Assembly: GCA_029858255.1 (NCBI GenBank) | Contig: JAOUFJ010000008.1 | Coordinates: 1-64,000 of the forward strand | Origin: a candidate division WOR-3 bacterium | GTDB lineage: Bacteria; Hydrothermota; Tepidihabitantia; SM23-42 | Direction: 5' to 3' | DNA length: 64,000 bases | Part shown: positions 1,434 to 54,497 of the stretch, piece after piece | Layout: every line of letters starts with the position of its first letter | How positions within the stretch are numbered: the first letter of the stretch is position 1 | Translations under genes and position numbers: made by a program | The notes under the pieces: generated by a model | What the model saw: only the letters and a program-made list of their open reading frames with translations | What the model was told of the DNA's origin: nothing | Database searches by the model: none

Positions 1434-1478
1434 TCATGGTAGGCGGTAGTTAATGGGTTTTTAGAGTCTGGAGGATTG

Positions 1479-1997
1479 ATGTCAAACAAACAAGATAATG
1501 CATTTTCAACCTTCTATGAATCCGTCCGTAACAACAAATTACTCACGCAGGATACTACACTCATGCTTCACCTGGCGGCGGCAATATCTGTTGGATGTGT
1601 GTCTTGAGTGAAAAATTACCTTGGCGTGGCCAGGGAGCAGGGAATCACTGACGACAAAATAGAAGTTGTACGTTCAGTGGTCATGGCAATATCTGCATGC
1701 AGTGTTGCCAATCGGGCAGAAACTAGCAGCGTGCTGCCAGAAAAACAGAAGAAGGCTTTTTCTGATTTCTACGAATCGACACAAAAGAATCAGGTGTTGG
1801 GATTGCGCACCACGCGATTGATCCAGATGGCAGCCGCATTCGTGAATGGCTGTCCGACATGAATAACTCGCTTGCTTGGCGTTGCCAGGCAGGAGAAGAT
1901 AACAGATGATGAGATCGGGGTTGTTCTTGCGATTGCGATGGCGGTATATGCAGGGGGAGTGAGGGGTCGCACAAAGGATGCTTTCAAAGCTAACTGA
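1479..1997 (+). CDS. tandem AhpD-like (CMD family) selenoprotein with two CxxU motifs
   Basis: Read straight through, this frame encodes 172 residues with UGA at codons 43 (1605-1607) and 128 (1860-1862) before a terminal UGA. Residues 4-79 and 89-164 align without gaps and share nearly half their residues (AFSxFYES, then TT, AAA, GC, LGVAR, ITDD, VV). Each half resembles the AhpD/carboxymuconolactone decarboxylase core, where GCxxC carries the redox cysteines. Here the motifs are C40-V-S-U43 and C125-P-T-U128, with UGA exactly at the second cysteine. Each UGA is followed by a matching hairpin (listed separately). A GGAGG lies 4 nt before the ATG, and the next gene starts 6 nt after the stop. 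The family does thiol-dependent peroxide reduction or related redox chemistry; the substrate here is unknown. Standard gene callers would report only the middle piece, 1608-1862. Selenocysteine is inferred; the sel genes are not in the window. Confidence 0.85.
1619..1635 (+). promoter_or_regulatory. predicted bacterial SECIS hairpin for Sec43
   Basis: Directly visible hairpin: stem 1619-1625 (CCUUGGC) pairs with 1629-1635 (GCCAGGG) over 7 bp including one U-G, leaving a GUG loop at 1626-1628. It begins 11 nt after the UGA at 1605-1607. Bacterial SelB-binding elements sit just 3' of the UGA inside the coding sequence and need a guanosine at the start of the apical loop. The 17-nt size and 11-nt spacing match the minimal element known from the E. 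coli formate dehydrogenase message. Confidence 0.75.
1874..1890 (+). promoter_or_regulatory. predicted bacterial SECIS hairpin for Sec128
   Basis: Stem 1874-1880 (GCUUGGC) pairs with 1884-1890 (GCCAGGC) over 7 bp around a GUU loop (1881-1883), again starting exactly 11 nt after the UGA at 1860-1862. Compared with the first hairpin, the basal pair changes from C-G (1619/1635) to G-C (1874/1890), a compensatory change that keeps the stem. The remaining stem sequence is shared, which is partly explained by both encoding LGVAR. Confidence 0.75.
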
Positions 1998-2520: not shown

Positions 2521-4368
2521 ATGCTTCGAAAGTATCTGACTATCTACTTGACCGTTTTGCTGCTTGTTTCGTGTGCGCCCCGGCACGATGATGGCGTCAA
2601 TGTATTGATCCTGGCGCCGCAGAACCTGGGGGCGAATTATTATCTGCTGCGTGATGTCATTGAAGAGTACGGATGGAACGTGACGCATACCGGTGTCCTG
2701 GACAGCATTACACCCTGTCCATGGTTTGCCAATCACGGTCAAATCTATCCACTTATTCCTGATGTGAAAATTGAGGACCTGGAAGACATCGGACATTATG
2801 ACTGTTTGATGATTGCCCCGTCAACCGGCAACGCGGCTCCGGTTGAATACCCGGTTGGTGATATAATTGACAGTCCTGAAGCATTACACCTCATCAGGCG
2901 GGCGGCGTACTACGGACTGGCCGTCTTCGCTACTTGTGTTGGAGTCCGGACACTGGCCGCTGCTGATGTCATAAGAGGACGTTTCATCGTCGGGTCGCCG
3001 AGATTCCGTCAAGAGTACATCGACGCAGGCGCCAATTATATTGGGCGTCCGCAAAATGATAACCCTCCGACAATTGACGGGAACATTATCACCTGTGCGC
3101 GAGGACAATACTACAATTATGCAAATGTGATGGCAATCGCTACCGTTATCGAGAGTAATCAAGGTCGAGGTCATAAAGATGTCTTGAACGCAGAATACAT
3201 CAATGCAAGGGATGTTGATTTTGAGAGGGGTCATGTGGTCTGGGCGAAAAATTACGGCGGCGCCGGTGCCGATGGTGGTCGTGCCTTTTGCATGACGCGG
3301 GATGGAGGTTTTCTTCTCGTTGGTTATACCTTCGCGCCTGGTGCTCCCGATGCGGATATGCTGGTTATTAAGACTGATGCAGATGGCAACATGACCTGGT
3401 CCAAACGCTTCGGCGGCGCAGGAGCGGAATATGGTAACGCATGTACGGAGACCGAGGATGGGTATCTAGTACTTGGTTACACCACTTCATTTGGTGCTGG
3501 GTCCAAGGATGTCTATTTGTTAAAGATTGATGATGAAGGGAATGAGGTCTGGTCAAAGACATTCGGCGGGACGAGTTGGGACGTTGGTACGGCATTATGC
3601 CAGGCTGTAGATAAACAATATTTCATATGCGGTTTCACTCACTCTTTCGGCTACAGCGAAGAAGACATTTATGTTCTCAAAATTGATGCACAGGGTAATA
3701 CTATTTGGTCCAAAACATTCAGCGGGTGGCGCATAGATATGGCTAATTCGGTTCACGCCACGGATGATGGTGGTTGCGTGATTGCAGCGAGTAGCGGCAG
3801 CCACAGTGCGAACACTGATTTCTATTTGGCAAAAATAGACGAAGCTGGTGAAAAAGAGTGGTCACAGTCCTACAATGCACTAGGTGAGCATGGTCATGGA
3901 TTTGATTGGTGTAAGGGTTCTTCACCCGCCGCAGATGGTGGTTGGATATTGACCGGATATTCTGACTGTAATGATATGATGGATGTGGTGGTCGTCAAGA
4001 CCGATTCGCTTGGAAATGAACAATGGCTGACCTCGTTTGGCAACAAACCTTTCTATGAATATGGCAATGCGGTATGTCAGGATGTTGACGGTGGTTACGT
4101 TATCGTTGGCATGACAAAAGCAATGGTTCGGCCGACCGAGTACAACAAAAGAACATATAATAATGATATGTATTTGGCTAAGCTCAATACTGAAGGTGCT
4201 ATTGTCTGGGATAAGGCAATCGGCGGGCATGGCGTGGAATGGGCAAATGCGGTTCGTATGAGTCCCGACGGTGATTTATTAGTGGTTGGACATTCGGATG
4301 GTGGCGCTGCGGGTTCGCTTGATGTTCTATTGGTAAAAATCGAAGGTTCTGCAGTTAGCAGTTTTTGA
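2521..4368 (+). CDS. lipoprotein with DJ-1/PfpI-like domain and beta-propeller repeats
   Basis: The 615-residue product starts with a hydrophobic signal ending LLLVSC, a lipobox that predicts lipid anchoring at Cys18. Residues about 26-215 resemble the DJ-1/PfpI amidotransferase-like fold: NVLILAPQNLG at the first strand, a DCLMIAPSTGN strand, and the elbow FATCVGVRTLAAADVIRGR carrying a candidate nucleophilic Cys. Residues about 240-610 hold about seven repeats of the form GGxxxDxGxAxCxTxDGGFLLVGYT...DxYLxKIDxxGNxxWSK, typical of outer-membrane or surface beta-propellers. Joining a DJ-1-like domain to this propeller in one lipoprotein is unusual. GGAGGGT lies just before the ATG. The function is unknown. 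Confidence 0.75.
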   Translation: MLRKYLTIYLTVLLLVSCAPRHDDGVNVLILAPQNLGANYYLLRDVIEEYGWNVTHTGVLDSITPCPWFANHGQIYPLIPDVKIEDLEDIGHYDCLMIAPSTGNAAPVEYPVGDIIDSPEALHLIRRAAYYGLAVFATCVGVRTLAAADVIRGRFIVGSPRFRQEYIDAGANYIGRPQNDNPPTIDGNIITCARGQYYNYANVMAIATVIESNQGRGHKDVLNAEYINARDVDFERGHVVWAKNYGGAGADGGRAFCMTRDGGFLLVGYTFAPGAPDADMLVIKTDADGNMTWSKRFGGAGAEYGNACTETEDGYLVLGYTTSFGAGSKDVYLLKIDDEGNEVWSKTFGGTSWDVGTALCQAVDKQYFICGFTHSFGYSEEDIYVLKIDAQGNTIWSKTFSGWRIDMANSVHATDDGGCVIAASSGSHSANTDFYLAKIDEAGEKEWSQSYNALGEHGHGFDWCKGSSPAADGGWILTGYSDCNDMMDVVVVKTDSLGNEQWLTSFGNKPFYEYGNAVCQDVDGGYVIVGMTKAMVRPTEYNKRTYNNDMYLAKLNTEGAIVWDKAIGGHGVEWANAVRMSPDGDLLVVGHSDGGAAGSLDVLLVKIEGSAVSSF

Positions 4369-53188: not shown

Positions 53189-54478
53189 TCAGCGGATTTT
53201 GATGATCTTGACCTTAGTCTGATTTTCGTCGACCACAAAATAAACGCCAGGTGAAACCGGTTCGTGCTGAATCCGTCTGCCGGATATATCATATATGATT
53301 GTATTTCCTTTATTCATGAATTGTTGTAGCGATCCTGCGATAATCGTTGGGCCGGAGTAAATCTTACATGCATGAGGTTCTCGCGATTCGTGAATAAACG
53401 TAGGGGTGTCAAGATTTCCAAAGATATCATAGCTATTGATGTTGTACTGCATCCACACTGCCAGGCAATTTTCGGAGCCGATGGCGATATCCGGGCTCGA
53501 TCGGTCTCCGCTCACGGGGTCGGATATTTTGAAATTCGAACCGAGCAGCTGCCCATCGGTCGAGATCCTTTGCCCGTAGATATCTCCGTTCTGGCTCCAC
53601 ACGGTAAGGAACATATTATCGCCGGTGACTCTCTGCATTGACTGGTAGCCGGGTCCGACTGCGATCGGTATTACATCGTTGATCAATGTCCCGCTGGTGT
53701 CGACTATTTGACCGAACACCTCATCACCGGCATAACTTGTTTGTTCATTCCAAACGATCAGATAACGTCCATCGGCGTACGCAATATCCGGAGTGTAATA
53801 ATGGTTCGTTTGTGATAGTGTTATTTCGAACGCATCACCGATGGGTTGTGCCTGGTCATTCAAAAATCGTCCGAAGACCCCATATGGTTCATCGTACGCA
53901 TACCACACAGCAAGACAATGTCCATCTCCAAAACTGACGCTCGGATGGTATTCCAGATAGGAATCTTTTCCGAAGAGTATACCTGAATCGAGCACGGCTC
54001 CTTGTGTTGTGACTCGTGCGGCCCTGACTTTATGCATTCCGCCGAAATCACCTTCAGACCATACAACAACATAATGTGACCCGTTGAAGACAATGTCAGG
54101 CTCCCTTTCGACCCCTATGTCGTTTTTGATAGGCACCGAACTGATCGTATCGAGGTATGGAGTGACACGCACCCCCATTATGTTCCCGGAACTTCAGCAA
54201 CTGTCACGGAAGACAGCGAGAAAATTCTGTCCATCGAATGATGCTCTGACTCCGTGAGTTGTGACACCGTGGTAAAGAAAACGGCCATCCGTATCAAGCA
54301 CCGTTCCATCTGGGCGCACGCGCGCAGCGAATATCGAACCCCCAAACGTCAAGTCAGACCAGAACGCGTAGTATGTACTCTCCGCAAAGATAACGCTTGG
54401 ATAATACTGAAATTCGGTGTGCTGGCAGATGGGAAAATCGGCTGCCAGAAGGATTGGCAATAGATAGTTGGCGATCAT
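53189..54478 (-). pseudogene. secreted repeat protein interrupted by one in-frame UGA
   Basis: Two same-frame pieces, 54478-54197 and 54193-53189, are split only by a UGA at 54196-54194 (codon 95 of 429). Both sides belong to one repetitive beta protein with units of the form DGxxxLxVWxD...GxIxGxRVTPxGxVLD. The first piece has a signal-like start (MIANYLLPILLAA) and ends FLAVFRDSC; the second continues SSGNIMGVRVTP and ends with a sorting domain (TIIYDISGRRI ... SPGVYFVV). The ATG of the second piece has no Shine-Dalgarno. No SECIS-like hairpin lies 11 nt beyond this UGA, unlike the AhpD-like gene. The likeliest readings are a nonsense mutation, a sequencing error, or read-through. Confidence 0.65.
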
Positions 54479-54497
54479 GCAAAAATGATTCCGGGAA

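Follow-up and report, generated by a model that had tools for sequence, protein, structure and literature searches.

The question raised by this locus is whether a short frame interrupted twice by TGA is a broken gene or a single coding sequence in which both codons are read as selenocysteine (Sec). It lies in a 64,000-nt stretch of DNA (here, the window) from a bacterium of candidate division WOR-3, a lineage with the related records CP070802, CP070686, and CP070795. When TGA is read as a residue, positions 1479 to 1994 translate into one chain of 172 residues that begins MSNKQDNAF, runs through GCVSU and then NGCPTU, and ends FKAN, with U43 (CVSU) and U128 (CPTU) each standing as the second residue of a CxxU pair (Table 1). 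The two halves align without a gap, 34 of 75 residues being identical (45%), and each by itself passes the threshold of the Pfam CMD model (cut-off, 23 bits). A sequence-only reading of this DNA had proposed just this arrangement, i.e., one frame with UGA at residues 43 and 128 in two gap-free repeats that share nearly half of their residues, each an AhpD/CMD-type domain, and had expected ordinary annotation to fragment the gene; translation, alignment, and profile matches bear this out, and the longest open reading frame under translation table 11 in the frame of the gene is only 84 amino acids (aa). Considered together, the results make a genuine selenoprotein, built from duplicated and fused CxxU CMD/AhpD-like domains, the best explanation of the locus and one that we regard as highly probable. 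The TGA that ends the frame is a real stop because the ortholog in one congener (G007) has TAA there and no hairpin of the kind described below follows it; on the same two grounds, we ruled out a third Sec or a fusion to the asparaginase-like gene that starts, in the same frame, just downstream.

Table 1. Positions of the features of the double-selenoprotein locus in the window (the last row refers to contig C2 of the source genome, G000)
Feature	Position	Strand	Evidence or remark
Tandem CMD/AhpD-like double-selenoprotein gene, 172 aa	1479..1997	+	Terminal TGA stop; frame and homologs
Shine-Dalgarno sequence GGAGG, 4 nt 5' of the ATG	1470..1474	+	Sequence; GGAGG or similar at the equal position in homologs
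First CMD domain, residues 1-84, motif G-C40-V-S-U43	1479..1730	+	PF02627, 35.1 bits
Second CMD domain, residues 85-172, motif N-G-C125-P-T-U128	1731..1994	+	PF02627, 40.6 bits
UGA codon, predicted Sec43	1605..1607	+	TGA also in G002, G003, and G007
UGA codon, predicted Sec128	1860..1862	+	TGA also in G002, G003, and G007
Terminal UGA, true stop	1995..1997	+	TAA in G007; SECIS-like hairpin absent
SECIS-like hairpin 1, CCUUGGC-GUG-GCCAGGG	1619..1635	+	Loop begins 18 nt after UGA
SECIS-like hairpin 2, CUUGCUUGGC-GUU-GCCAGGCAGG	1871..1893	+	Loop begins 18 nt after UGA
Asparaginase N-terminal-domain protein, 162 aa	2004..2492	+	PF00710; follows the fused gene in G000, G003, and G007
Lipoprotein with DJ-1/PfpI and beta-propeller regions	2521..4368	+	Synteny
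UGA-containing selD (L039; related genomes, L032-L038)	G000 C2:184234-185139		Motif KCAGU

The sequence-only reading had named the Sec-decoding genes and the homologs as the places where it could be checked, and both came out in its favor. The source genome (2.72 Mb in 82 contigs, 96.6% complete) contains a tRNA-Sec (75 bits), selB (351 bits), selA (545 bits), and selD (310 bits), all within ~16 kb of a single contig. Sec decoding is independently supported because selD itself has a single TGA within its frame, at the motif KCAGU, a feature shared by seven of eight related genomes that were searched; the selD UGA is followed by a hairpin (CUGCGC-AGUUG-GCGCAG) whose loop is related to those of the CMD-gene hairpins. 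The same tandem protein was recovered from three congeners (G002, G003, and G007) at 59 to 61% identity, with UGA at exactly both positions, no other internal stop, and no decay. Comparisons between congeners by the Nei-Gojobori method gave dS values from 0.9 to saturation in both halves and dN/dS ratios of 0.18 to 0.26 for the first half, taken where dS was unsaturated, and 0.11 to 0.21 for the second. Both halves are thus under purifying selection, and, because dN/dS is low where dS is high or saturated, the segment after each TGA is translated and selected. Three further genomes of the genus (G004, G005, and G006) have the Sec machinery and no match to the tandem protein, and so the double-CMD protein seems to be dispensable.

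These observations dispose of two readings that involve no Sec. That the locus is a pseudogene, in which two nonsense mutations have hit a tandem CMD gene, is what the two internal stops and the short table 11 frame suggest to standard annotation, but it is refuted by the same two TGAs persisting as the only internal stops in four genomes at near-saturated synonymous divergence, by dN/dS of ~0.2 in both halves, and by the position of each TGA at that of a catalytic Cys with a hairpin after it, and we give it practically no credence. The chance that UGA has been reassigned (e.g., to Trp) or is generally read through in this lineage is just as negligible: several gene families of the source genome do contain in-frame UGAs, but UGA also terminates genes, the fused gene itself among them in three genomes (G007 using TAA), the full Sec machinery is present, and UGA occupies the Cys position of CxxC, as judged from a Photobacterium homolog with Cys there, with hairpins specifically after it.

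The hairpins themselves were analyzed across homologs. Just downstream of each UGA of the gene lies a predicted hairpin with G and U in its apical loop, as is expected of a bacterial SECIS element. It is found at an identical distance after 11 of 11 homologous UGAs (four first halves, four second halves, and three single domains), with the core UUGG[C]-GUN-[G]CCA and an apical GU. Numbered from the U of UGA, this loop GU falls at nucleotides 22 and 23; in the SECIS of Escherichia coli fdhF, the key G and U are at 23 and 24. Standard pairs fill 94.8% of 77 pair cells, and two positions change on both sides in a compensatory manner (CG/UA and CG/GC); in a control in which the partners were slid by 1 to 3 columns, pairing dropped to 15 to 56%. 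The codons that form the stem are frozen, with CTT encoding 9 of 9 Leu, GGC 10 of 11 Gly, and GCC 11 of 11 Ala residues, against a usage of 0.17, 0.26, and 0.22, respectively, in nine window genes; the usage-based P values (~1e-7, ~1e-5, and ~5e-8) treat the sequences as independent, although related genes are not. The third base of the loop Val codon (GTN) varies freely. Since the stem codons are frozen even though synonymous sites have reached or nearly reached saturation in both halves, the pattern in these nonindependent sequences points to selection at the RNA level. Chance can be set aside: both UGAs of the gene are conserved in the three congeners, and of the 2,658 TGA triplets that the two strands of the window contain, only 16, these two included, precede a comparable GU-loop hairpin. 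Judging from the machinery and the hairpins, both UGAs of one mRNA would be decoded by SelB with Sec-tRNA.

The genus and family also hold the intermediates from which such a gene could have been assembled. One congener (G001) has a single-domain gene with the motif CGAU, and a genome from another genus of the same family (G010) has two separate, adjacent single-domain genes with CTSU and CSSU. In a domain tree built on a MAFFT alignment, the four first halves group together, as do the four second halves, and the G010 pair appears as a separate, younger duplication (moderate support, with no fork starred); in the accompanying identity matrix, the row of the first half from G000 (G000_d1) is out of register and was set aside. 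These sequences are explained most simply by a single duplication and fusion that took place before the four fused genes diverged. Because a single-domain form exists in a congener and separate tandem genes exist in another genus, the fused form appears to be a product of local duplication and fusion: a small CxxU CMD/AhpD-like domain would have been duplicated and joined to its copy, each copy keeping its own UGA (Sec) and SECIS-like hairpin. This agrees with the duplicated form with one CxxU center in each half that had been proposed from the DNA of the window, which the homologs with the same two UGAs support. With these intermediates at hand, a route from a single to a double selenoprotein becomes visible, in which the SECIS element is duplicated along with the domain. 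Any of these CMD genes occurs in only 6 of the 147 genomes of the phylum. The two G010 genes (L013 and L015; C1:1059979-1060651) are ~89% identical; a TAG interrupts the frame of the first close to its start, and this gene may be decaying.

Selenoproteins with CxxU in an AhpD-like or CMD domain have been on record since 2005 (PMC1088965, PMC2398784), and we compared the fused protein with these and other relatives. The AhpD-like and CMD selenoproteins from the Sargasso Sea and GOS data share with it CxxU and a predicted SECIS hairpin, but the 2026 inventory of 119 selenoprotein families (PMC13188914) gives them one Sec. In that inventory, AhpD/CMD forms have one Sec, MduS has two, and ArsM-AhpD has three, the latter two with an added methyltransferase, and a tandem CMD protein with Sec in both halves is absent from it. 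The model of the GSU3128-family (seleno)proteins, distant AhpD homologs (NF041047), describes a small CMD domain with CxxU and matches both halves; its proteins have one domain and one Sec (PMC13188914), whereas the window protein has two of each, and its equivalog cut-off of 110 bits is reached neither by the fused protein (58.2 bits) nor by the two single-domain relatives scanned (39 to 43 bits). MduS (NF045649) and ArsM-AhpD (NF041537) have a related CxxU CMD domain and more than one Sec per chain, but there its partner in the fusion is a methyltransferase and here it is a second copy of the CMD domain; with the MduS model (methyltransferase plus CMD; cut-off, 380 bits), the CMD part alone matches. 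By profile score, then, the nearest relatives are small CxxU CMD domains of the GSU3128 type and the AhpD-like domain of the MduS and ArsM-AhpD selenoproteins. The best NCBIfam scores being those of MduS (79.3 bits) and ArsM-AhpD (67.0 bits), one might see in the protein not a redox relay but an accessory that binds metal or selenium or is related to arsenic, much as the CMD domains joined to arsenite methyltransferases are. We consider this improbable, as the scores are far under the cut-offs (380 and 510 bits), the protein has no fused methyltransferase domain, and no ars genes were recognized among the neighbors examined.

Searches outside the lineage recovered few further relatives. Among genome contigs, a scan with the single protein as the query gave no match, and one with the alignment as the query recovered the three WOR-3 congeners only; viral contigs and phages gave no match. 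The plasmid scan recovered only the Photobacterium homolog, which has a single domain with CxxC at the place equivalent to that of the UGA, and tandem CxxC proteins of Staphylococcus. These scans weakly suggest that the double-Sec form is absent outside WOR-3. The Staphylococcus plasmid protein (WP_202809411.1, L055; NZ_CP068578.1) likewise consists of two CMD repeats but is cysteine only, with CxxC in each repeat, has 219 aa, and is ~22% identical to the window protein. Its gene adjoins trxB, and by analogy, this hints that the function of the window protein may be linked to thioredoxin reductase. CxxU AhpD/CMD domains, multi-Sec proteins, and tandem CMD proteins with two CxxC motifs are thus already known; what is new is that self-fusion, Sec and a SECIS-like element in both halves, and sister genomes with intermediate states occur together.

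The AlphaFold model of the chain (pLDDT, 78; pTM, 0.79) is all helical, with two four-helix repeats, and its best matches in the Protein Data Bank are chains of Mycobacterium tuberculosis AhpD (1KNC and 1GU9; TM scores of 0.68 to 0.75 for the top five). As modeled, it would share with this protein the two-repeat all-helical fold over the whole chain and a CxxC/U motif at the same helix start. AhpD of M. tuberculosis has its catalytic residues Glu118, Cys130, His132, Cys133, and His137 at the C-terminal end (PMC3141380), where they fall in helices H8 and H9; its CxxC is thus confined to the C-terminal part, and catalysis involves Glu118, His132, and His137, whereas the window protein has CxxU in both halves. 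It falls far below the cut-off of the AhpD family model TIGR00777 (15.2 against 191.95 bits). Read by alignment to solved CMD relatives rather than to the M. tuberculosis sequence itself, position -12 is Leu28 or Arg113, with no Glu in either half, and at position +4 Tyr47 and Leu132 replace His. The earlier designation of the protein as AhpD-like therefore holds for its CMD domains and CxxU motifs but not in the sense of a canonical AhpD, as Glu(-12) and His(+4) are replaced. Because these are the proton-relay Glu and the second His, it is doubtful that the protein acts as a peroxidase in the manner of AhpD, and the sequence suggests that this proton relay is probably not used.

We predict that the protein is most likely a selenol-thiol redox relay on an AhpD scaffold with two active centers. 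The chain most likely folds as an AhpD-type two-repeat unit, and it probably assembles as AhpD/CMD proteins do, with two active centers per chain against one in AhpD. Each CxxU would most likely cycle between the selenol/thiol and selenenylsulfide states, and the protein would then reduce disulfides or peroxides or serve as an AhpD-like electron-relay adaptor. The second motif, NGCPTU, is invariant in the four genomes with the fused gene, and the first varies as GC[VG][SN]U, which hints that the two centers may have unequal roles. These roles might have diverged such that the varied first center takes electrons and passes them within the chain to the invariant NGCPTU; an AhpD scaffold would then carry a self-contained two-selenol relay, decoded from a single mRNA with two SECIS elements that act independently. 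We offer this only tentatively. The same invariance, together with the slightly lower dN/dS of the second half and the C-terminal location of the catalytic residues in helices H8 and H9 of M. tuberculosis AhpD, could instead mean that there is one catalytic center only, the second half performing the chemistry and the first being structural or auxiliary, as in that protein. This, too, is a possible but rather doubtful reading, for the first half retains its Cys, Sec, and SECIS-like hairpin in four of four genomes, which would be costly if unused.

The gene neighborhood is conserved in part. In six of six genomes, the CMD gene, whether fused or single, precedes the gene of the DJ-1/PfpI-propeller lipoprotein, and the 162-aa asparaginase-like protein, in which only the N-terminal asparaginase domain was matched, is encoded between the two in G000, G003, and G007, where it is strongly conserved. 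No reductase, peroxiredoxin, or partner enzyme was recognized beside the fused gene, and the genes further downstream are those of what we take to be methylmalonyl-CoA mutase.

The hairpin scan of the window flagged a second UGA, at 54196, on the minus strand, whose readthrough joins a secreted-looking, propeller-like protein of 435 aa (53189 to 54496) with a C-U motif (FRDSCUSSGNIMGVRV). This protein has no match among the Pfam and NCBIfam models and is absent from the 2026 inventory. Among the matches listed in a phylum-wide search (E values down to ~4.5e-24), >85 loci in 32 WOR-3 genomes encode homologs, each with exactly one TGA, and a conserved SECIS-like hairpin, GGAGUG-CGxGU-CACUCC, lies at a fixed place after the UGA. 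Nine close sequences alone showed no compensatory change in it; in the wider set, more distant members have the compensatory variants GGGGUG/CACCCC and GGGGUC/GACCCC. These propeller-like "CU" proteins are a strong candidate for a new, apparently undescribed selenoprotein family that is abundant in the phylum, and they may be a larger discovery than the double-CMD protein. The double-CMD gene indicates that WOR-3 uses Sec beyond a basic set, in genes that normal annotation splits; the earlier remark that selenoproteins are little described in this lineage fits the literature searched, in which we found no text pairing WOR-3 with selenoproteins. Among the matches listed, and with the genomes being related to one another, selA exceeds its cut-off in 27 of the 32 genomes with propeller-like genes and in 32 of the 115 others (Fisher P = 1.3e-8).
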